The notes under the pieces were generated by a model. It was given only the letters and a program-made list of their open reading frames with translations, was not told the DNA's origin and searched no databases. From contig JAIOYW010000003.1 in assembly GCA_021740915.1 (NCBI GenBank), positions 62,001-126,000 of the forward strand: a stretch of 64,000 nucleotides of DNA, written 5' to 3'. The stretch's first letter is position 1. Every line of letters begins with the position of its first letter. Positions 5,175-63,930 of the stretch are shown piece by piece. The stretch is from Ignavibacteriales bacterium. GTDB taxonomy: Bacteria > Bacteroidota > Ignavibacteria > Ignavibacteriales > Melioribacteraceae. The position numbers and the translations under genes are program-made.

Positions 5175-6284
5175 TTGATCTCAGCAAAGATAAAACTGCT
5201 TCACATTATTGATAGTCTGAAAGTTGGTGGTAAAGAGAGGCAATTATTAAACTTGATAATGTACCAACAGCATCACTACGATCTATTCATTCTGATTGCT
5301 AATTCTGAAGTAAGTTTATCAGAAATATATGAAGCTAAAGTGCATTTGGGATTTTTGCCCGTCAAACGCAAATCAATAGGGTTCCAATTTTTTCTTAAAA
5401 AGTTCATTGAACAAAACAAAATAAATCTGATACACACATGGGATGCAATCTCAACTCTAACTGCTTTGCCTAATTGTATTCTGAAAAATATTCCGTTAGT
5501 GAATGGTTCGATTAGAGGAAGTGCAAAGATTAGTAGTTTTTCAAAAAAATTCTTTATAAACAAAATAAATTTTTGGCTATCCGCGATAAATATTTCAAAT
5601 TCTTTGGCTGGGCTCAATGCTTTGGCTGTATCTAAATCAGAAAAGTTTGTTGCAATTCATAACGGGTATCTTCCGAGAACTATCAATAGATCCGTCAATG
5701 ATGTCAAAAAAGAATTAAATATCAATGCTGAAAACGTAGTTGGTATGGTCTCTAATTTTAGATCCGGGAAGGATTTTGATACTTTTTTCTTTGTAGCTGA
5801 TTCAATATGCCGGGTAAGAGATGATGTCGTTTTTGTTGCCGTTGGTGCAGGTCCCGATTTTGAAAAATATCAGCAAAAATATCGTGGTCTTTCTTCTAAG
5901 ATTCTACTTCTCGGTCACAAAGAACATCCTGAGGAATATATGAATTGTTTTGATATTTCAGTACTGCTTTCATATGAGTGTTCTGAACACGGTGAAGGAA
6001 TCTCAAATTCAATTATGGAGTATATGGCCTTAAAAAAGCCAGTCATTGCCACTAGAAGTGGAGGTAATCCGGAAATTGTGTCACATAACGAAACAGGTTT
6101 ATTAATTGAACCCAAGAGTACCAGGGAGTTCGAGAATTCTCTTCTTTTTCTTCTGACCAATCCAAAGATAGGTATTCAAATGGGAGAAACAGGGTACAAC
6201 ATGCTTTCAAGCAATTTTTCAATTGAAAAAATGGTTTCATCCTACGATAACATATACTTAAGAATATTGGCACGCTACAAATGA
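5175..6284 (+). CDS. Glycosyltransferase family 4
   Basis: A 369-residue GT-B protein from the TTG at 5175, immediately after the upstream stop. A longer frame upstream would run 146 bases into the ATP-grasp gene and lacks family similarity, so it was not used. The start gives the usual N-terminus with LLHIIDSLKVGGKERQLLN, the GT4 glycine loop. The C-terminal domain has VGMVSNFRSGKDFDTF, LLLGHKEHPEEYMN and the EX7E motif in EHGEGISNSIMEYM. It ends in an ATGA overlap with the next gene, so translation is probably coupled. It is a retaining sugar transferase of the repeat-unit assembly line with unknown donor. Confidence 0.82.
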   Translation: MISAKIKLLHIIDSLKVGGKERQLLNLIMYQQHHYDLFILIANSEVSLSEIYEAKVHLGFLPVKRKSIGFQFFLKKFIEQNKINLIHTWDAISTLTALPNCILKNIPLVNGSIRGSAKISSFSKKFFINKINFWLSAINISNSLAGLNALAVSKSEKFVAIHNGYLPRTINRSVNDVKKELNINAENVVGMVSNFRSGKDFDTFFFVADSICRVRDDVVFVAVGAGPDFEKYQQKYRGLSSKILLLGHKEHPEEYMNCFDISVLLSYECSEHGEGISNSIMEYMALKKPVIATRSGGNPEIVSHNETGLLIEPKSTREFENSLLFLLTNPKIGIQMGETGYNMLSSNFSIEKMVSSYDNIYLRILARYK

Positions 6285-8023
6285 ATTGGATCATTACCAA
6301 CTACAAAATGAATCTTGACAACGCATTTAGTCAACCAAATTATATTGTCCATACTTCAGAGACAGGATCCATAATTTTTTGTGAAAGGGGCACTCCGGCT
6401 TTTATTATAGATGGTTACATACTCCCTCGTGCAGCGGTTGCCAGCCAATATGTAGGAATGACACAACAGGAGTTCCTTTGCACGGTCTTTGCACAATATG
6501 GAGATGATTTTATTAAGTTCACTAAAGGTTCATTTAACCTCATTGTGCTTAAAGATAGTTCATTCACTATCTATAATGATACGCACTCTATAAAAAAATT
6601 TTTCGTCTATCAAAATGGTGACAAATTCCTAATTTCGAATAACCTAAAAAGTCACTCTAGCTATTTGGAGTTAAAAGTTTCAAAAGAAAATCTTGCCATT
6701 TTCCAATTGTTTAATCACTTCATTGGTGGATACACACTCTTTGAGGGAATTCGTTACAGTCTGCCGGCAACATGTTTGCGTCTGAATGGTAAATTAGAAT
6801 CATTTAACTATTGGAGTCCACAAGATCTTTTTGAGGGGCGAATCACTCCAATTGACATTTTTGATTTTGCACGTAATTGGGAAAAGTCTGTCAGAGGGTA
6901 TGTAGAATTCCTGAAGCCGAGTGCTATTTCTCTAACTTTGACGGGAGGGAATGATAGCAGAATGGTACTCGCTGCATTACTCCACAGCAATATAAAGCCA
7001 AAAACTTTCACTTACGGCGAGCCTTTATCTGCCGATGTGGTCATATCGAAAACTATAGCTGAGCAAACAGGACTCAGTCATGATTCACATTTTGTAAAAG
7101 AGCCCTCAATGGATTGGTTCTCTTCTCAAGCAAAAAAAATAATTGAGATGGGTAATACTTTGATAAATATTCACCGGGCACATAGACTGGATGCAGTTGA
7201 ACGAGAATCTTCACAGGTGAATTCCGAGATGTTGTTTACAGGATTGGTCGGAGGTGAGTATATCAAAATTCCGAGGATCAATGGTGTTACTATTCCAAAA
7301 TTATTTGTGGATTTGGACCAATTAGATGACAAATTCAAACAAAATTCTTTGGTAACACAGAGTCTCCAAGCAATAGGTATTAATACAGCCAATATTGATA
7401 CTGAACAAGTCCTCGATAAAATTATTGAGGTTATTGCCCCTTACTCCAAACTGACAGACATTCAGAAAAGATTCTGCTATACCCACATTTATTATGCAAC
7501 AGTTCACCACACCCAAGACCCGGTTATTTTTGGCAGTCAGTTTAAATATGTTGTTAATCCTTTTATGGATATTGATTTTATGGAATTGCTTTCAAAATCA
7601 AAGTTTTGGTATATAAACAGTAAATGGGTATTTTTTCAGACTATTTTTCATTCTTATCTTCACGTAAAAGTAACCGATATCCTCTATCCTCAACTGTCAA
7701 CAATATTCTATGCGAAGAATGGCGCTTATACCGGTAAGGAATTTCTAAAGCACCCCTTGAGATCTATACTTAAAAGATTTATTAAAAGGTTACTAAAATC
7801 AGGTTCAACATATCCGCCGAACTTTACTTTAAGGGAGTGGGTGTCTGAATATTCCTCATCTGAGTTAATAAAATTACATACATCTGTGAAAGAAGTGTTT
7901 GATGTTCAGTTTTTACAAACATATTTGATGGATGTGAAAAAAATGACTACGGAAGAAAAGTGGAGCAAAATCACAAATCCAATAAACCTCTCACTGAATC
8001 TCCAATACTATGAAAAAACATAA
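6281..8023 (+). CDS. Asparagine-synthase-like amidotransferase lacking the glutaminase cysteine
   Basis: A 580-residue protein with the two-domain plan of asparagine synthase B-like enzymes. An N-terminal Ntn-hydrolase-like domain (about 1-190) shows GSFNLIVLKDSSFTIYND, and the ATP-pyrophosphatase domain carries the PP-loop TGGNDSR at residues 221-227. The mature N-terminal Cys that hydrolyses glutamine in true asparagine synthases is absent: the protein begins MNWIITNYKMNL. It therefore probably uses ammonia or another amine, or acts as an adenylating synthetase as in beta-lactam or lasso-peptide relatives. It starts by ATGA overlap and ends inside the start of a second ATP-grasp gene. Substrate unknown; amidation of a sugar acid is one possibility. 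Confidence 0.7.
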   Translation: MNWIITNYKMNLDNAFSQPNYIVHTSETGSIIFCERGTPAFIIDGYILPRAAVASQYVGMTQQEFLCTVFAQYGDDFIKFTKGSFNLIVLKDSSFTIYNDTHSIKKFFVYQNGDKFLISNNLKSHSSYLELKVSKENLAIFQLFNHFIGGYTLFEGIRYSLPATCLRLNGKLESFNYWSPQDLFEGRITPIDIFDFARNWEKSVRGYVEFLKPSAISLTLTGGNDSRMVLAALLHSNIKPKTFTYGEPLSADVVISKTIAEQTGLSHDSHFVKEPSMDWFSSQAKKIIEMGNTLINIHRAHRLDAVERESSQVNSEMLFTGLVGGEYIKIPRINGVTIPKLFVDLDQLDDKFKQNSLVTQSLQAIGINTANIDTEQVLDKIIEVIAPYSKLTDIQKRFCYTHIYYATVHHTQDPVIFGSQFKYVVNPFMDIDFMELLSKSKFWYINSKWVFFQTIFHSYLHVKVTDILYPQLSTIFYAKNGAYTGKEFLKHPLRSILKRFIKRLLKSGSTYPPNFTLREWVSEYSSSELIKLHTSVKEVFDVQFLQTYLMDVKKMTTEEKWSKITNPINLSLNLQYYEKT

Positions 8024-9074
8024 AGTTGTAATACTCGCTAACGAGAACCCAAATGACCATTCTTTATGGATCGACGCGTGCAATGACTACAAAGATAGCG
8101 TTGACTATGCTGTTGTTAAATTGACTCGTAGTGATTGGTTTGAACAGCTATGTATGTTACCGTGTGATTATTTATTGGCACGACCTCCTGGTATCTCTTC
8201 GAATTTTAAGTTGTTATATGATGAAAGAATAAAACTAATAGATGAAATTCTCAAAATTCCCATATTTCCAACACCAAAAGAGATTTATTTATACGAAAAC
8301 AAGAGATTTCAATATTCTTGGTTAAAGCTTAATAATATCCCCCATCCGAGAACCGATATATTCTATGACAAAAATGAAGCTTTCGATTTCTTAGCTCAAG
8401 CAACTTTTCCAATTGTGGCCAAATCGAATATTGGTGCTTCTGGAAGTGGTGTTAAAATTTTCAAAGACAAAAAGCAGTCACTCGAATATATTTCGTCAGC
8501 ATTTTCCGAGAGGGGCATAACACGGCGATGGGGACCAAATCTTGCGAAAGGTAATTTACTCTCACGTGCCTCCCATTATTTTTTCAATATGAAAGATATT
8601 AAGACCAAGATCAGTGGTTATGCTGCAGTTAGAAAGGCAACTCAGCAAGGATTTGTGATTTTTCAGGAATTCGTTCCTCACACGTTTGAATGGAGAGTCG
8701 TTGCGATTAATAATTCTTATTTTGCACACAAAAAACTGGCCATTGATGGTAAAGCAAGTGGCACACTCTTGAAGGATTATGATCGCCCGCCACTATATTT
8801 GTTTGATTTCGTTGAAAAGATTGTCTCCGCACACTCATTGACCTCTCAGGCGATTGATCTTTTTGAAAATGAAAACGGAGAGTTTCTTGTTAATGAAATG
8901 CAATGCATCTTTGGCCAGTCTGATCCGTATCAAATGTTAGTAGATGGTGTTCCTGGCAGATATTTTAAAAAATTCGGAAAATGGGAGTTTGAAGAGGGGG
9001 TGTTCAATAAAAATGCATCTTTTAACCTGAGATTGGATAGTGTCTTGGAACTTATCTCAAAATCCAACGATTAA
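8010..9074 (+). CDS. ATP-grasp enzyme, RimK-like, substrate unknown
   Basis: A 354-residue protein overlapping the previous gene by 14 bases. The small lobe shows FPIVAKSNIGASGSGVKIF near residue 133; the body has VIFQEFVPHTFEWRVVAINN, the strand that pairs with the ATP lid, and the C-terminal FLVNEMQCIFGQSDPY, with the metal-binding Glu followed by Met-Gln instead of the usual Ile-Asn. It resembles the enzyme at 4103 in plan but is clearly a different paralogue. Together with the asparagine-synthase-like neighbour it suggests two or more amide-forming steps in this glycan pathway. The stop at 9072-9074 ends the first overlapping gene run; an 82-base gap follows. Confidence 0.7.
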   Translation: MKKHKVVILANENPNDHSLWIDACNDYKDSVDYAVVKLTRSDWFEQLCMLPCDYLLARPPGISSNFKLLYDERIKLIDEILKIPIFPTPKEIYLYENKRFQYSWLKLNNIPHPRTDIFYDKNEAFDFLAQATFPIVAKSNIGASGSGVKIFKDKKQSLEYISSAFSERGITRRWGPNLAKGNLLSRASHYFFNMKDIKTKISGYAAVRKATQQGFVIFQEFVPHTFEWRVVAINNSYFAHKKLAIDGKASGTLLKDYDRPPLYLFDFVEKIVSAHSLTSQAIDLFENENGEFLVNEMQCIFGQSDPYQMLVDGVPGRYFKKFGKWEFEEGVFNKNASFNLRLDSVLELISKSND

Positions 9075-9156
9075 ATCTTTTCATCACAGGTCAATTTAGA
9101 GTGTTTCATAATAACCTACTAAGTTAATCCTTACATGCCTAGAATTTAAGGAAAAT

Positions 9157-10134
9157 ATGCCGTCCAAAAATAAACTTCGTGTTTTATTTGTGTCAAGTGG
9201 CAATTCCCCGCAAGGTATTTCGCCATTGGTTCTTTCTCAGGGTAAATCCATGGAAGAACAAGGGATGGACATTGTTTATTTTACTATTAAGAAATCTGGT
9301 TTAATAGGATATGTCTCAAGTATTCCTTCGTTAAAACGAATTATCGGGATGCAAAAACCAGACATTATTCATGCTCATTACTCTTTATCGGGTTTTGTGT
9401 CTGGTTTGACATTTACCAATACTCCGATCGTTGTCTCTTTGATGGGGTCAGATGCAAACATGGGATCAAACTATAGTTCTTTAATCAGAATATTCGCAAA
9501 AAAAATATGGTCTCGAGTTATTGTAAAAAGCGCTTCCATGAACAGAGATTTGAAACTTAGTAATGTAAATGTTATTCCCAACGGTGTCGATTTAAATCGG
9601 TTTAAATGCTTGGATAAGGCGGAATCTAAAACGCTTGTGAGATTTGCGACTGACAAGATAGTTATTTCATTCTTTTCAGACCCAGCCCGATATGAAAAGA
9701 ATTTTAGTCTAGCTCAAGAGGCGGTTTACAGTTTCGAGAATGCAAAAAATATTGAATTCCGAGTCATTTACGATATCCCCTTTGACTCGGTACCAATTTA
9801 TCTTAATGCAACTGATATATTAATATCTTCTTCATTATGGGAGGGATCACCTAACATAATAAAAGAGGCTATGGCATGTAATGTCGTCGTAGTGGCTACT
9901 GCCGTTGGAGATATCCCTGAATTATTTGATGGAACATCAGGGTATTTCCAATCTTCACATGATTTAAAAGATATGATCGATAAACTTAATAATGCATACG
10001 ACCACATTGTCAATAAAAGAGCGATTAATGGGAGAGAGAAGATTATTGATGCATGTTTAGATTCAAATTCTATCGCTGCAAAATTGTGTATGTTGTATAA
10101 TGAAGCGAAAACAAGAAATTCAAGTGGAAGTTAA
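9157..10134 (+). CDS. Glycosyltransferase family 4
   Basis: A 325-residue GT-B enzyme, slightly short for GT4. It has the early PDIIHAHYSLSGF strand, the interdomain VIPNGVDLNRF near residue 145, and the EX7E motif in SSLWEGSPNIIKEAM, followed by VVVVATAVGDIPEL. The ATG at 9157 is preceded by AAGGA at 9148-9152. It opens the second run of overlapping genes and its stop shares one base with the next ATG (TAATG). A retaining transferase adding one residue to the lipid-linked glycan is the expected role. Confidence 0.85.
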   Translation: MPSKNKLRVLFVSSGNSPQGISPLVLSQGKSMEEQGMDIVYFTIKKSGLIGYVSSIPSLKRIIGMQKPDIIHAHYSLSGFVSGLTFTNTPIVVSLMGSDANMGSNYSSLIRIFAKKIWSRVIVKSASMNRDLKLSNVNVIPNGVDLNRFKCLDKAESKTLVRFATDKIVISFFSDPARYEKNFSLAQEAVYSFENAKNIEFRVIYDIPFDSVPIYLNATDILISSSLWEGSPNIIKEAMACNVVVVATAVGDIPELFDGTSGYFQSSHDLKDMIDKLNNAYDHIVNKRAINGREKIIDACLDSNSIAAKLCMLYNEAKTRNSSGS

Positions 10135-53924: not shown

Positions 53925-53930
53925 AGGAGG
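53925..53930 (+). promoter_or_regulatory. Strong ribosome-binding site of hxsA
   Basis: A full AGGAGG lies 4 bases before the hxsA ATG. Most genes in the window have much weaker sites, so the precursor is probably translated at a high rate. Confidence 0.75.
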
Positions 53931-53934
53931 CAAT

Positions 53935-54135
53935 ATGCCTATATCTAATCAGTTCTTTGATTTTGAAGAACAAGCACCAAATACGAATATTATTAACGAT
54001 GAATTAATAGTAATTCGTTCAAATGAAAAAGAGGACTATTCAGAAAATGAAAACTTTTCTCATGGTTCTCATGGTTCTCATGGCTCTGGTCATACTTCTC
54101 ATGTTTCTCATGGGCATACATCAGCAGCAGGTTAA
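53935..54135 (+). CDS. hxsA: His-Xaa-Ser RiPP precursor peptide, short HxsA-like
   Basis: A 66-residue peptide. Residues 1-41 form an acidic leader-like part (FFDFEEQAPN, then NDELIVIRSNEKEDYSENENF). Residues 42-66 are the core-like tail: three HGS units at 43-51, then HTS (53-55), HVS (56-58) and HTS (61-63), with G60 between H59 and H61, ending AAG. That gives six His-Xaa-Ser units and seven His in 25 residues. The downstream hxsD, hxsC and hxsB identify it as the substrate. It has no signal peptide. It is shorter than the long His-Ser-rich HxsA proteins I associate with the family. The leader cleavage site and the modification are unknown. Confidence 0.82.
   Translation: MPISNQFFDFEEQAPNTNIINDELIVIRSNEKEDYSENENFSHGSHGSHGSGHTSHVSHGHTSAAG
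54058..54084 (+). repeat. Tandem 9-base repeat coding for Ser-His-Gly units
   Basis: TCTCATGGT, TCTCATGGT and TCTCATGGC are consecutive 9-base units inside hxsA, each giving Ser-His-Gly. The same codons are used in all three, so the unit count could change by slippage or recombination. Confidence 0.85.
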
Positions 54136-54150
54136 TTCAAAATTGTTATA

Positions 54151-54182
54151 GGCAAGAAGTAATTAAGCTTCTTGCCATTTTT
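54151..54182 (+). terminator. Hairpin attenuator between hxsA and hxsD
   Basis: GGCAAGAAG (54151-54159) pairs perfectly with CTTCTTGCC (54168-54176) around an 8-base loop and is followed by A then five T. It has the form of an intrinsic terminator, lies 15 bases after the hxsA stop and 11 bases before the hxsD start region. Partial read-through would make much more precursor than enzyme mRNA, as in other RiPP operons. Confidence 0.7.
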
Positions 54183-54193
54183 ATGGAGAAAAA

Positions 54194-54466
54194 ATGACAA
54201 TAAAACTAGGTAAGAATGACTACCAAAAGGAAGTAATTGAAAAAACGATATTGCTTCTTGAATCAAAATATGACTTAATATTGGAAATCACAGACGACAA
54301 TTACATTGTTGTTTCAACAGGGAGCAAAATATCTAAAGAGTTATTTTTGAAAGAACTTTTATATAATGATTTGAGATATCAAATTGCACAAAAAACAAAT
54401 ACTATAAAAAAACTTATTGTTGGAAGGGCGCTATATGATTCCTGTATTAGATTGGAGCAAAAGTAA
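54194..54466 (+). CDS. hxsD: His-Xaa-Ser system protein HxsD
   Basis: A 90-residue protein. FLKELLYNDLRYQIAQKT (about 51-68) matches the LLNDYxLRE-type motif of HxsD, and TIKKLIVGRALYDSCI follows as in the family. HxsD is a small partner of the two radical SAM enzymes and may play the part of a precursor-recognition element, though that is not shown here. ATG 54194 follows TGGAG. The stop abuts the hxsC ATG, so the two are translated together. Confidence 0.85.
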   Translation: MTIKLGKNDYQKEVIEKTILLLESKYDLILEITDDNYIVVSTGSKISKELFLKELLYNDLRYQIAQKTNTIKKLIVGRALYDSCIRLEQK

Positions 54467-55651
54467 ATGCAATTAAAACTTACTGAAGTAAAATCAAAAC
54501 AAGAAAGTGGTTATTTGTATGGAATACTGACAAATGAATTTGATGCAATAGAGAAAGAAATAAAAATATTGTATCTTGAAAATCTATCCAAAGCACTACC
54601 TGCTGGATTTTTGGGTTATATATTATTAAAAAAAGATAATCATTTTATTAACTATGACATACCTAATCTTTTTACTATAGATGAGCCTTTCACTTTTAAC
54701 TCTAACCAGATAATAATCAAAATTGATTTTACTGAAAATGTTATTTGGCAAATAATTGATTTATCAAAGAATCATATTGATTTGTATCTTACAGGTAAAT
54801 GCACGCAGTTTTGTATAGCGTGCCCCCAACCACAAAAATTTAGAAAGGATTTGGAACCAAAAAATGAAGCTCTTATGATAAGTAAAGTTTTGATTAATCA
54901 GAAAAAACATATAAATATCTCAGGTGGAGAACCCACATTTAACAAGAGTTATTTTGTTGCCGTATTAAAAGCACTCCAGTCAAATTCACCTGAATCTAAT
55001 TTGCAAATTTTAACGAATGCACTCTCCTTTTCAAAAGAGGCTTTTATATTAGAAATGGTGGAGCAAGGGATTGTTTTTGAAAAGTTGTTTTTTTCAATAG
55101 CTATTTATGGTAGTAATCCTGAGATTCAGGATTTTGCAACAGGGTTAGATGGGAGTTTTTACAAACTTGAAAATGCAATTCAAAATATTAATAATCATAA
55201 GGCAAAGATCGAATTAAGAATTGTTATTAATAAAATTAATTTATATGATCTTGAAAATATTTCTAAATTAATAGTGGAAAAGTACCATGATAAAATCACG
55301 CGTGTAATTTTTATGGGTCTTGAAATGTCTGGTGATGCAGAAGTAAATCACGAAAAAGTATGGATCCCGTTTAATGAACATAAGCCATTTCTACTAAATT
55401 CCATTATTTACTTATTAACACATAATATAAATGTACTTTTATATAATTATCCACTCTGTTATTTGCCAAAACAATTTTGGAGTTTAGCCAAAGACAGTAT
55501 TTCGTATTGGAAAAAATATTTTCATTATGGATGTGATAAATGTCAAGTTAAAAGTATGTGTGCTGGTTTTTTTGAGAGCACACTTCCATACATAGAACAA
55601 GTCACACCAATATTAATTCAGAAGGACAAACATGAAGTTAAGACTTGCTAA
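54467..55651 (+). CDS. hxsC: His-Xaa-Ser system radical SAM maturase HxsC
   Basis: A 394-residue radical SAM protein. C112-x3-C116-x2-C119 in LTGKCTQFCIACPQPQKF is the SAM/4Fe-4S site, and HINISGGEPTFNKSYF near residue 145 is the GGE motif that binds SAM. The C-terminal YGCDKCQVKSMCAGFF gives three extra cysteines that may hold an auxiliary cluster. About 100 residues precede the barrel. It is expected to make a carbon- or sulfur-centred radical modification of the hxsA tail together with HxsB. It overlaps the hxsB start by 20 bases. Confidence 0.88.
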   Translation: MQLKLTEVKSKQESGYLYGILTNEFDAIEKEIKILYLENLSKALPAGFLGYILLKKDNHFINYDIPNLFTIDEPFTFNSNQIIIKIDFTENVIWQIIDLSKNHIDLYLTGKCTQFCIACPQPQKFRKDLEPKNEALMISKVLINQKKHINISGGEPTFNKSYFVAVLKALQSNSPESNLQILTNALSFSKEAFILEMVEQGIVFEKLFFSIAIYGSNPEIQDFATGLDGSFYKLENAIQNINNHKAKIELRIVINKINLYDLENISKLIVEKYHDKITRVIFMGLEMSGDAEVNHEKVWIPFNEHKPFLLNSIIYLLTHNINVLLYNYPLCYLPKQFWSLAKDSISYWKKYFHYGCDKCQVKSMCAGFFESTLPYIEQVTPILIQKDKHEVKTC

Positions 55652-57050
55652 TAATAAAATTTTACCATTTTATTTTGCGGAATTCGAGGACGATTATTTA
55701 GTTACAAATTTATTTAAGGAGTATATTTTCTTAAAAAAAGGAGAATTTTCACAACTTATTTCTGGTGAATTCACAGATGAAAAATTGCTTAATGTACTAA
55801 CTACAAAAAATTTTATTTATGAAGGCGAAGATGAATTAATCGCGGAAAAGTATGGCATTATATATAAAGAGCAGAATTCATTTTTATTTAGTGCAACTTC
55901 TTTGCATATTTTCGCAGTTACACAAAATTGTAACTTAAACTGTGTTTACTGTCAAGTTACGAGTAATATGAATACACATAAAAATACTTTAATGACAAAA
56001 GAAATTGCTCGTAAATCGGTCGATATTGCACTTGAATCGCCATCACATTTTTTAGCGTTTGAATTTCAAGGGGGAGAGCCATTACTAAATTTTCCAGTGA
56101 TTAAAGAAATTGTCAATTATGCTAAAAAAAGAAATAATAAAAAGAAAATTGAATATCGCTTAGTAACAAATCTTACTCTTATGACAGATGAAATTTTAGA
56201 CTTTATTGAAGAAAATAAAATCTCTATAAGTATATCATTAGATGGTGATGAATATATACAAAATATGAATAGACCCTATAAAAATGGGAAAGGGTCTTTT
56301 GAAAAAGTTATCTATTGGATAGAAAAAATTAGAAATAGAAAAAATATTATTATCTCTGCATTGCCCACCATCACAAAAGAGTCTTTATCTAGAATTGATG
56401 AATTACTTGAGACATATATTTCGTTAGGTTTTAAGAATATTTTTATAAGGAGTTTATCTCCTTTTGGTTCAGCAACAGCCAACTGGGATAATATTGGATA
56501 TAGTGCTTCAGAATTCTCACTATTTTATGAAAAAATATTAGACAAAATAATTTCATATAATACTGATGAAATTGTTGTTACAGAAAATTATGCTGCAATG
56601 GTATTAGAAAAAATACTCAATAAAACAGCTGTAAATTTTATGGATTTAAGATCGCCATGTGGGGCTGGTATTGGACAGATAGCATACAATTGGGATGGCA
56701 ATATTTATACTTGTGATGAGGGGAGAATGCTCTCAGTTGAGGGTGATCAAACTTTTAAAATCGGAAATATTAGTGAAGATAATTATCAATCATGTATGCA
56801 GAATGAAAATTTAGAATATGTTTTATCAGCGTCGGTATTAGATAGTGTTATAGAATGTTCAGATTGTGTTTATTCGCCAATTTGTGGTATTTGTCCAGTT
56901 TATAACTATAAGACGCAAGGAAAACTATTTATTCCTATGACAGATGATTTTCGTTGTAATGTTTTTAAAGGAATATATAAATCCATTTACTCTAAACTAA
57001 AATCAAATGATCCTGAAACTATGAAAATATTATTGAAATGGGTTCAATGA
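55632..57050 (+). CDS. hxsB: His-Xaa-Ser system radical SAM maturase HxsB (SPASM)
   Basis: A 472-residue radical SAM/SPASM protein. C100-x3-C104-x2-C107 is in VTQNCNLNCVYCQV; LAFEFQGGEPLLNFP near residue 140 is the GGE motif. The C-terminal part carries CGAGIGQIAYNWDGNIYTCDE near residue 343 and SDCVYSPICGICPVY near residue 417, the SPASM cysteines for auxiliary clusters. An N-terminal ~90-residue region may bind the precursor leader. GAAGGA at 55621-55626 precedes the start inside hxsC. One 60-base line at 56161 has only 13 G/C, much lower than the flanking polysaccharide genes, which suggests foreign origin. Confidence 0.9.
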   Translation: MKLRLANNKILPFYFAEFEDDYLVTNLFKEYIFLKKGEFSQLISGEFTDEKLLNVLTTKNFIYEGEDELIAEKYGIIYKEQNSFLFSATSLHIFAVTQNCNLNCVYCQVTSNMNTHKNTLMTKEIARKSVDIALESPSHFLAFEFQGGEPLLNFPVIKEIVNYAKKRNNKKKIEYRLVTNLTLMTDEILDFIEENKISISISLDGDEYIQNMNRPYKNGKGSFEKVIYWIEKIRNRKNIIISALPTITKESLSRIDELLETYISLGFKNIFIRSLSPFGSATANWDNIGYSASEFSLFYEKILDKIISYNTDEIVVTENYAAMVLEKILNKTAVNFMDLRSPCGAGIGQIAYNWDGNIYTCDEGRMLSVEGDQTFKIGNISEDNYQSCMQNENLEYVLSASVLDSVIECSDCVYSPICGICPVYNYKTQGKLFIPMTDDFRCNVFKGIYKSIYSKLKSNDPETMKILLKWVQ

Positions 57051-57450
57051 AAAATAAACAAAACCTAACAAGCTTTTCCACCCGACCGCCTTTTCATTGT
57101 GGCAATGGTTAAGTTTTTAGGTTTGGTAAAAAAAGTTAGCATTACTTGTAACGTTGTTCTAATAAATAAATTTGTTAAAAATATTTGGCTTGGGTTTTTC
57201 AATTCGTCATTGCTGTTATGGGCGGCGGCTGAAGCGCAACGTTATACCGCAAGTTGTGAATTCAAACTTGCATAAACACTCCCAGTAAATAGGGTAGGAA
57301 TATTTCCCTTTGTTTTATGACAGTAAGGTGTTGTTTTTAGTTGTAGTATAATTTATTTAGCAAAAGCAACAGGGGGTAGTGGCATTAAGAAATTAGATTT
57401 ATTAAATAAACACAAGAGTTTTGCCACCTTAAGAATAACGAGATGCATTT
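57051..57450. other. Gap after hxsB containing an attC-like dyad
   Basis: A 400-base gap. ACCTAAC at 57063-57069 fits the RYYYAAC end of integron attC sites, GACCGCC (57084-57090) and GGCGGC (57221-57226) can pair, and GTTATAC at 57241-57247 stands where GTTRRRY would be, though imperfectly. The span of about 185 bases is long for attC. Bases 57231-57252 are similar to 14831-14852 near hicBA. No gene was found. Confidence 0.35.
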
Positions 57451-61989: not shown

Positions 61990-63930
61990 ATGAAAGGAAT
62001 TTCCTTGCCTCCCTTTAGAACCAACAGAATACTTTCGAGAATCAGGAACAGACATTTTGCCCTGCTGGATCTGTTAGTCTTTATCCTCTCCGTTTTTCTG
62101 GCGATACTTATCCGCTACGATAACTTTAGATTTCTGCACGCTCACTTCAATGAGATTGTCACTGTTTTTTCTCTTTTCCTCGTTGTAAAATTTACGATCC
62201 TTATAATATTTGGCATCTATCGTAGAATGTGGGTGTTTGCGGGCGTTGATGAACTTGCTCAATTATCAATTGCCGGAGGTGTTATTTTATTTGCTGAAAT
62301 CATTCTATTAGCGGTGCTGGAAATACTTTTTGACAACAAATTTGCTGCCGTTCCAAATTCGCTTATTATTATCGATTCATTTGTTTCACTGGCTTTTATC
62401 TCAGCGAGTCGATTCAGTATCCGATTATTAAAAAGGGCGCGTGAGCGGTTTTTGCTTCAGTCAGAGGGTGTCAGCGTTGTTATTGCTGGAGCCGGTAATG
62501 CAGGCATACAGGTTGTATCCGAGATTCAGAAAAATCCTCGTTTAATGATGAATCCGGTCGGCTTTATCGATGACGATCTTTCAAAATTGAAACTTCAAAT
62601 CCGTGGACTGCAGGTATTAGGTGACCGCAGATCACTTGTGCACGTGAAAAAGAACTATGGTGTAAAAAAAGTCATTGTCGCTATGCCGACAGCCCCGGGC
62701 GATGTGATCCGCGATATTATTCAAAAATGTGATGAATTGCAGCTCGAAGTACTGACTCTGCCGGGAATCTCCGATCTGATAGGCGGGAAAGTGACTATAA
62801 ATCGTCTTCGTAGTGTTAAAATTGAGGATTTGCTGCGTCGGGATGTGGTCGAGACTGATCTTGAGAGGATCAGACAGATGCTTAACGGCAAGGTTGTCCT
62901 GATTACGGGCGCCGGGGGATCAATCGGCGCTGAACTCTGCAGGCAGGTGCTTACAGGTGTTCCGTCAAAAATTATTTTATTCGGGCATGGTGAGAATTCA
63001 GTTTTCGAAATTGAACAGGAATTGTTGTTAAGGATTAGCCGCCAGCAGACATATCAGAATCCCAAAACCGAAATAGTAAGTAAAATTGCTGATATTAAGA
63101 ATATTGCAACTCTTGAACTGATATTTAAAACATTCCGTCCTGCTTATGTATTTCATGCAGCCGCCCACAAACATGTGCCGCTCATGGAATCAAATCATCT
63201 TGAGGCAATCTGGAATAATGTCATCGGGACAAAAAATCTTATCGAAGCCTCCATTAAATATGATGCCGAAAAGTTTATTCTTATTTCGACAGACAAAGCT
63301 GTTAACCCGACGAGTATTATGGGAGGAAGCAAGAGGATTGCCGAGATGCTTACTCTTGCTGCAGCGCGGAAATACAAAAGGAAATTTGCTCTGGTGCGTT
63401 TCGGGAATGTGCTTGGCAGCCGGGGGAGTGTAATAAGAACATTTAGCACACAGTTGGAAAACGGGGGCCCTATTACAATTACGCATCCCGAAATAAAACG
63501 ATATTTTATGACAATCCCGGAAGCTGTAAAATTAGTGCTCGAATCGTTCTTTCTTTGCAATGGGGGTGAAGCATTTGTACTTGATATGGGAGAACCAGTA
63601 AAAATAGTTGACCTTGCGAAAGATATGATCAGGCTGGCTGGTTTACAGGAAGATAGTGATATCCGGATTCAGTTCACGGGTCTCCGTCCTGGTGAAAAAT
63701 TGTTTGAAGAACTTTTTAACGATGGCGAGAATTATTCAAAAACTTCACACCAGAAGATTCTTATTGCACAAAATGCCAGTGAGTTCGTTCATGAACAACT
63801 TATTAGCTGGGTGCAGAGGTTTGAAAATTATTCTCCCAACTGGACACATGCCGAATTGGTAAATGCGATAAGAGAAATAATTCCGGAATTTGCGAATGAA
63901 ACGCATTTAAGGGAAAATAACCCTAAGTAA
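61990..63930 (+). CDS. PglF-like UDP-HexNAc 4,6-dehydratase with membrane domain
   Basis: A 646-residue protein. Residues 1-130 carry four membrane helices, residues 150-280 a first Rossmann-like domain (VVIAGAGNAGIQVVSEIQ), and the rest the catalytic extended SDR: GAGGSIGAELCRQV near residue 309, AAAHKHVPLMESN near residue 394, STDKAVNPTSIMGGSKRIAEM near residue 437, in which Met replaces the usual active-site Tyr (MxxxK) as in WbpM/PglF. The reaction is UDP-GlcNAc to UDP-4-keto-6-deoxy-HexNAc at the inner membrane. It feeds PglE just upstream and starts the amino-sugar route. Confidence 0.93.
   Translation: MKGISLPPFRTNRILSRIRNRHFALLDLLVFILSVFLAILIRYDNFRFLHAHFNEIVTVFSLFLVVKFTILIIFGIYRRMWVFAGVDELAQLSIAGGVILFAEIILLAVLEILFDNKFAAVPNSLIIIDSFVSLAFISASRFSIRLLKRARERFLLQSEGVSVVIAGAGNAGIQVVSEIQKNPRLMMNPVGFIDDDLSKLKLQIRGLQVLGDRRSLVHVKKNYGVKKVIVAMPTAPGDVIRDIIQKCDELQLEVLTLPGISDLIGGKVTINRLRSVKIEDLLRRDVVETDLERIRQMLNGKVVLITGAGGSIGAELCRQVLTGVPSKIILFGHGENSVFEIEQELLLRISRQQTYQNPKTEIVSKIADIKNIATLELIFKTFRPAYVFHAAAHKHVPLMESNHLEAIWNNVIGTKNLIEASIKYDAEKFILISTDKAVNPTSIMGGSKRIAEMLTLAAARKYKRKFALVRFGNVLGSRGSVIRTFSTQLENGGPITITHPEIKRYFMTIPEAVKLVLESFFLCNGGEAFVLDMGEPVKIVDLAKDMIRLAGLQEDSDIRIQFTGLRPGEKLFEELFNDGENYSKTSHQKILIAQNASEFVHEQLISWVQRFENYSPNWTHAELVNAIREIIPEFANETHLRENNPK

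Follow-up and report, generated by a model that had tools for sequence, protein, structure and literature searches.

Within the genome of an Ignavibacteriales bacterium (Bacteroidota, Ignavibacteria, Melioribacteraceae; GenBank assembly GCA_021740915.1) lies a compact operon for a ribosomally synthesised and post-translationally modified peptide (RiPP) that is very probably a maturation operon of the Hxs system with a signal-free precursor. The stretch analysed, here called the window, comprises 64,000 nucleotides (positions 62,001 to 126,000 of the forward strand of contig JAIOYW010000003.1), and the operon occupies its positions 53935-57050 as four plus-strand open reading frames. They encode a peptide with a tail of His-Xaa-Ser (HxS) units, the small protein HxsD and the radical S-adenosylmethionine (SAM) proteins HxsC and HxsB; hxsC and hxsB overlap by 20 bases. 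We regard the operon as a rare, possibly acquired variant of the known Hxs system, of which only four loci were found. The hallmark of this group is the absence of a hydrophobic (signal or membrane) segment and not shortness, since short precursors are already catalogued as HxsA2 (96-residue model) and HxsA4 (93-residue model). What is new here is the signal-free precursor group; the Hxs system itself and those short precursors were known before. The features of the operon, including a predicted RiPP recognition element (RRE), are as follows.

53925-53930, plus strand: AGGAGG, 4 nucleotides upstream of the precursor ATG and likely its ribosome-binding site (read from the sequence)
53935-54135, plus strand: HxsA-like precursor, 66 residues, with an acidic leader (1-41) and a His-Xaa-Ser tail (42-66)
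54151-54176, plus strand: terminator-like hairpin followed by ATTTTT, separating the precursor gene from the maturation genes; it may act as a partial terminator (fold and pattern scan)
54194-54466, plus strand: HxsD-like protein, 90 residues (TIGR03976 below cut-off; structure model)
54467-55651, plus strand: HxsC-like radical SAM protein, 394 residues (TIGR03977 below cut-off; HxsC tree; four conserved C-terminal cysteines)
55632-57050, plus strand: HxsB radical SAM/SPASM maturase, 472 residues (TIGR03978 above cut-off; predicted N-terminal RRE-like domain, seven SPASM cysteines)

The precursor peptide

A first-pass annotation of the window had reported these four frames, and all are present where it placed them. 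Its six HxS units within the last 25 of 66 residues were likewise found, at residues 43, 46, 49, 53, 56 and 61, as were the CxxxCxxC motifs, C112/C116/C119 in HxsC and C100/C104/C107 in HxsB. The last 25 residues contain seven histidines, and the peptide has no cysteine. Six HxS units occur in only one of the 560 stop-to-stop frames (at least 40 residues, whole window), which is the precursor frame; the next-best frame, with 590 residues, has four and the remaining ones have at most two. Shuffled versions of the peptide reach six units in 2 of 20,000 trials. These frame counts and shuffles mean that the repeat did not arise by chance. Among the NCBIfam models the peptide matches HxsA4 only, with 28.8 bits (cut-off 55) over residues 40-60 and thus by its tail alone, and it stays below the curated cut-offs of all four precursor families, HxsA, HxsA2, HxsA3 and HxsA4. 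A search of its own genome up to E 10 revealed no second precursor.

As a measure of a hydrophobic segment we used the best 17-residue hydropathy mean ahead of the first HxS unit. The window peptide reaches -0.05, i.e. it has no hydrophobic leader segment. This means that the product is probably cytosolic, or released by a route that the operon does not encode. It was already noted in the first-pass annotation that the operon contains neither peptidase nor exporter, and this holds; in addition, no C39 leader peptidase/exporter was found in the genome (the control search was positive in 8 of 14 genomes), other peptidases and exporters not having been searched for.

The signal-free clade

In the phylogeny of HxsB the window protein forms a clade with three others, from loci assigned to Chloroherpeton (L015), Quinella (L029) and Fretibacterium (L034). 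Its support by the Shimodaira-Hasegawa-like approximate likelihood ratio test is 99 in a quick tree of 88 rows. A second tree, for which 46 of 103 rows were selected and HxsBs of Synergistota and Negativicutes added, gives the clade a support of 100/98. On the latter the signal-free trait requires one change in 100% of 200 bootstrap trees.

Directly upstream of HxsD each of the three relatives encodes small peptides: two of 59 residues in L015, one of 54 residues in L034 and one in L029 of 40 residues if started at TTG 5552, or 56 from the first possible start. Like the window precursor they are short (40-59 residues), unsignalled, built around an SHGSH core (followed later by HSS) and located 5' of HxsD and HxsB, so the tail noted in the first-pass annotation does recur beside these genes in relatives. 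They contain two or three HxS units, compared with six in the window, and none has a hydrophobic segment or scores above the cut-off of any NCBIfam precursor model. The middle unit is HSA in L034, and in the L015 peptides cysteines stand beside the units. No similarity between the leaders could be detected from locus to locus, so that the common descent of these peptides rests on position, tail and HxsB.

The gene content of the four loci varies. After HxsB a class I methyltransferase follows in all three relatives and is absent after the window operon. L015 encodes an HxsC4-like protein (92.6 bits, cut-off 500), whereas in L029 and L034 no HxsC was found beside HxsB and nothing exceeded 62 bits genome-wide. 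Because two of the three relatives lack HxsC there, the shared core consists of peptide, HxsD and HxsB. The first-pass view of a minimal system is therefore apt in so far as the substrate is a leader plus repeat tail, but shortness is not new and the window, which has kept HxsC, is not the most reduced form. In L034 the frame after the methyltransferase (7808-8344) encodes a 178-residue metallopeptidase-like protein with an HEIMH motif, a possible leader peptidase, for which no Pfam or NCBIfam match was found.

HxsB is sporadic, and the clade looks rare. With E 1e-60 as threshold, sampling 395 genomes of the phylum gave HxsB in two, one of them the window's own, and with E 1e-80 it was detected in one of 164 genomes of the order. 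Clade-like scores, i.e. over 760 bits, were reached by one of 164 genomes in the order, one of 185 in the phylum of Fretibacterium, one of 380 in the class of Quinella and one of 245 sampled in the class of Chloroherpeton. The other matches in the second and third of these sets (6 of 185 and 9 of 380) have at most 478 bits, and the precursors seen there are of hydrophobic-leader types; four of these matches, together with L105, fall outside the clade in the 46-row tree, which does not include the others. The taxon labels of the three relatives are weak because they come from metagenome-assembled genomes, the L015 contig having just 4,550 bases.

Other precursor types

A scan of named genomes confirmed at least 580 relatives, of which the best 80, corresponding to 79 loci, were kept. 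In the flanks examined a precursor was found at 55 of the 79 loci and none at 24. The HxsA2 precursors have 95-96 residues and those of HxsA 211-253, two of them annotated as peptidoglycan-binding. Clostridial precursors comprise about 130-260 residues (L028 tests as HxsA3), and those of Elusimicrobia about 80-165 (L060 and L080 test as HxsA4). All these compared types have a signal-like N-terminal stretch or a hydrophobic segment before the repeats. Hydropathy separates them from the clade: for the best 17-residue mean, none of the 69 other precursors falls below 0.99 and none of the five clade precursors exceeds 0.61 (76 rows minus two antisense frames, with L029 scored from its 56-residue start). 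Nine further HxS precursors have values of 1.65-2.76; the same rule could not be applied to a tenth.

As the precursor list required three clustered HxS units, a looser search for short tails was added. It recovered all four known peptides in the three clade loci and, in the 24 precursor-less loci, one implausible frame of 35 residues. Four added Synergistota loci contain HxsC, HxsD and HxS precursors with hydrophobic leaders. Nine relatives were found on viral contigs, five of them with HxS peptides; all of these have a hydrophobic leader (1.65-2.76), and a viral origin was rejected. Among plasmid records 384 showed an HxsB match, and seven of them were fetched. Klebsiella accounts for 315 of the 384, so that, in this collection, plasmids of Klebsiella widely carry an Hxs cluster.

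The maturation proteins

NCBIfam represents the typical Hxs system, in which HxsA, HxsA2, HxsA3 or HxsA4 stands with HxsB, HxsC and HxsD, by the models TIGR03976-TIGR03979, NF038296, NF038309 and NF038313. With this system the window shares the HxS tail and the joint presence of HxsD, HxsC and HxsB in the order D-C-B, which is found in 24 of 24 genome loci with true HxsC and HxsD matches. In contrast with these loci, where D and C are 0.9-1.3 kb apart, the two genes are directly adjacent in the window; the seven plasmid loci show the order D-B-C. Differences from the typical system are the 66-residue precursor without hydrophobic segment and the scores of precursor, HxsC and HxsD, which lie under the respective cut-offs. 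The profile check proposed in the first-pass annotation supports an Hxs-type operon: all three maturation profiles match, HxsB (TIGR03978, 506.8 bits) above its cut-off of 370, HxsC and HxsD below theirs.

For HxsD the top match is TIGR03976 with 35.8 bits (cut-off 50; E 7.7e-09), covering model positions 3-86 of 90. Its structure model (predicted local distance difference test, pLDDT, 91.6) has a predicted beta-alpha-beta-beta-alpha-alpha fold, an order of elements unlike that of an RRE; a separate, PqqD-like RRE is a winged helix of beta-beta-beta-alpha-alpha-alpha topology. No confident match to HxsD was found in the PDB (best E 0.11 by fold and 0.29 by sequence), and no fold was assigned, the best structural alignment being to a designed protein (Z 7.5).

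The HxsC-like protein has TIGR03977 as its top match (246.6 bits, cut-off 267.9) and is placed inside the true HxsC clade with a support of 98 in a 71-row tree of HxsC-like proteins, its long branch being flagged as unsure. Its residues C331, C356, C359 and C365 are invariant in all eight HxsC compared. The first-pass annotation had noted SPASM cysteines in the second enzyme; all seven are indeed present in HxsB, yet HxsC too has these conserved C-terminal cysteines, and, judging from the sequences, both radical SAM enzymes likely contain an auxiliary cluster.

The HxsB model (pLDDT 91.3) shows three strands and two helices between residues 13 and 58 and then a further helix at 67-81, which is the order of elements in an RRE. 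The nearest solved folds are AnSME (4k38) and CteB (5wgg), which resemble HxsB in predicted fold and SPASM cysteines and are set apart by an identity of only 19-22%. VIA-align superimposes AnSME over residues 88-472 (Z 37.2, root mean square deviation 2.6, 360 residues), CteB over 2-460 (Z 36.3) and TigE over 6-460 (Z 27.3). Only CteB (two entries) and TigE among the 50 entries listed align the N-terminal part, which was compared within the full-length model. CteB, which we take to carry an RRE, presumably acts on a SCIFF peptide, and AnSME presumably on a sulfatase. The N-terminus of HxsB is thus predicted to be an RRE-like domain, preceding a predicted SPASM fold. In such enzymes RREs are described as generally N-terminal (PMC8326336).

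The seven SPASM cysteines are complete in 82 of 103 HxsB sequences, the window included. Seventeen (L008-L014, L103, L104 and L106-L113), all from HxsA/HxsA2-type and related loci, lack cysteine at two or three of the positions 343, 361 and 421; of the remaining exceptions one, from Elusimicrobia, is without two cysteines and three have His at 442. Perhaps this split reflects two biochemical types of HxsB.

Repeat rule and proposed chemistry

The spacing of the tail was analysed in 667 HxxH steps from 74 precursors. At the second position after His (i+2) there are 594 Ser, 31 Thr, 30 Asn, 8 Ala, 2 Asp, 1 Lys, 1 Tyr and no Gly. Glycine is found in 219 of the 667 steps at i+1 and at 292 of 1052 other tail positions. 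While the share of Ser at i+2 is inflated because precursors were picked by their HxS content, the absence of Gly among the 73 non-Ser steps was not forced by the selection of rows. This suggests that the residue at i+2 must have a beta-carbon, and the repeat rule favours, as far as sequences can tell, a crosslink from His to that carbon.

Known enzymes follow the same motif logic, with an aromatic residue or His at i and a beta-carbon at i+2: as described in PMC11002830, MscB joins Phe C4 to the beta-carbon of Ser, i to i+2, and HaaB, YhhB and ScaB join His C2 to the beta-carbon of Ala or Arg. HxsB lies outside their profile families, and such an activity would be ascribed to it by analogy. 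A His-Ser cyclophane step is predicted in this way, and we consider it quite possible without going so far as to call it probable.

Taking all evidence together, a signal-free His-Xaa-Ser radical SAM RiPP operon acting in the following steps offers the best overall explanation, one that we hold to be narrowly probable. Its gene set, its tail, the HxsB clade and the lack of a hydrophobic segment are established. Synthesis of the precursor would take place in the cytosol, and the hairpin 3' of its gene may raise the amount of peptide above that of the enzymes. The predicted RRE-like domain of HxsB would hold the acidic leader, HxsD may serve as a small partner protein, and HxsB, aided by HxsC, would proceed along the tail and link each His to the residue at i+2. 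By analogy the likeliest bond would connect the imidazole with the beta-carbon of Ser, giving a three-residue His-Ser cyclophane at a cost of 2 Da per unit.

Several points weigh against this explanation. HxsC and HxsD are each under their curated cut-offs, only four loci were found and the three relatives are metagenome-assembled with weak taxon labels. The middle unit of the L015 peptides is HNE or HSE and hence not HxS. When the leaders of the window and of the L015 peptide L015a are aligned, 63 of 2000 shuffles are as good, and for the eight other cross-locus pairs the figure is 125-1433 of 2000. Outside the clade, the G157 locus also has a candidate precursor (158 residues, a single HxS) without hydrophobic segment (0.73), next to an HxsB-like protein with 361.9 bits, below the TIGR03978 cut-off. 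Serine at i+2 is partly built in by selection, which leaves 73 non-Ser steps as the unbiased ones. The profiles of cyclophane formers are also the weaker ones for HxsB, all under their cut-offs: YhhB 95.2 bits (445), GrrM/OscB 90.1 (310) and AmcB 74.7 (425), as against 183.7 for PapB, 159.6 for CcpM and 159.1 for nif11 maturases. The HxS motif alone proves little, since according to PMC9062424 an HxS peptide is found beside radical SAM enzymes other than HxsB/C; in the same source, maturation of HxS peptides is ascribed "putatively" to HxsB and HxsC, with reference to the founding paper of Haft and Basu from 2011. In the literature searched (titles and abstract openings, without bioRxiv and with few subscription journals) we found neither an Hxs product nor measured chemistry for any Hxs enzyme.

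The G157 locus (L140) deserves separate mention: its candidate precursor (6170-6646), which combines a long leader with a tail rich in His, Cys and Gly, is followed by the HxsB-like protein (7799-9310) and then by another radical SAM protein. The locus may represent a distinct system related to Hxs.

Alternative explanations

The profile ranking just given, in which PapB, CcpM and nif11 maturases surpass the cyclophane formers, would fit enzymes that perform another radical change (epimerisation, beta-hydroxylation, a thioether in L015 or other), with HxS serving mainly as recognition motif. The cysteines beside the units in the L015 peptides and the methyltransferase added in the three other clade loci point in the same direction, but the window peptide has no cysteine and no methyltransferase follows its operon. 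We consider this explanation unlikely, although less so than the other alternatives.

Oxidation of serine is clearly less probable still. Here an AnSME-like HxsB would turn the Ser side chains of the HxS units into formylglycine-like aldehydes, with no crosslink being formed. AnSME is the top fold match, the seven SPASM cysteines are kept and Ser predominates at i+2 (594 of 667). The AnSME-like fold, however, is common to many SPASM enzymes; Thr, Asn and Ala also occur at i+2, Ala cannot yield an aldehyde in this way, and serine oxidation would give no reason for the strict three-residue phasing with His.

To a cytosolic metal-binding peptide, whose His-rich tail would serve as the metal ligand and be modified only to a minor extent, we ascribe the same low probability; it would be compatible with a crosslink. 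Seven histidines in 25 residues speak for it, as does noursin, a histidine-crosslinked RiPP reported to bind copper (PMC10206099). Metal binding gives no reason, however, for the complete absence of Gly at i+2 or for two radical SAM enzymes, and no metal transporter or regulator was found among the 22 flanking proteins scanned, which represent part of the window genes.

It is very improbable that an ordinary Hxs operon is decaying here, its precursor having lost the signal part. The single copy, the sporadic occurrence (HxsB in one of 164 genomes of the order) and the scores of HxsC and HxsD below their cut-offs speak for such a remnant. Against it stand frames that are all open, intact radical SAM cysteines and the repetition of the signal-free form in the three other members of the HxsB clade, with one origin on the tree.

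Genomic setting

The hairpin at 54151-54176 has ten pairs (z -4.62), and 0 of 200 shuffles fold as well; a pattern scan of the window region for such hairpins gave two sites with 1.3 expected, i.e. near chance. A hairpin also follows the first peptide of L015 (z -2.18, 5 of 200 shuffles; five sites found against 2.2 expected). Standing between peptide and hxsD, the window hairpin could allow the peptide to exceed the enzymes.

With 28.6% G+C the operon differs from the window as a whole (35.9%), and it sits within a surface-polysaccharide cluster. This composition in such surroundings is consistent with acquisition, as far as sequence composition can indicate it. No mobile element was found, the integron being the only one examined. 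Just past hxsB (57064-57248) there are attC-like boxes, CCTAACAAGC at 57064 and CGTTATACC at 57240. An integron cassette was nevertheless rejected: neither exact box is repeated in the window and relaxed matches are at chance level, shuffled DNA folds at least as well (z 0.74), and the top match to an integron integrase in the genome is under the cut-off and split around model positions 178-238. The polysaccharide cluster extends from 34860 to 63930 and encodes glycosyltransferases, a sulfotransferase, a sugar transferase, ATP-grasp, epimerases and Wzi-like, DegT and Polysacc_synt_2 proteins.

Significance

Tentatively, the four loci may be put forward as a fifth Hxs precursor class of small, signal-free cytosolic peptides, a proposal that in its full form is rather doubtful. 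The tail would be converted to three-residue His-Ser cyclophanes, of which the window peptide could hold as many as six, by HxsB and HxsD alone in some lineages, with methylation in others, and the product would be soluble and intracellular or released, in contrast with anchored or secreted Hxs proteins. The other precursors compared, with their hydrophobic segments, are awkward substrates, whereas the peptides described here have 40-66 residues and should be soluble. The action of HxsB and HxsC on His-Xaa-Ser thereby becomes a question of co-expressing three or four genes, and HxsC-containing and HxsC-lacking relatives offer a natural comparison for separating the jobs of both enzymes. A rare Hxs operon that looks intact thus reduces an open biochemical problem to three or four soluble components.

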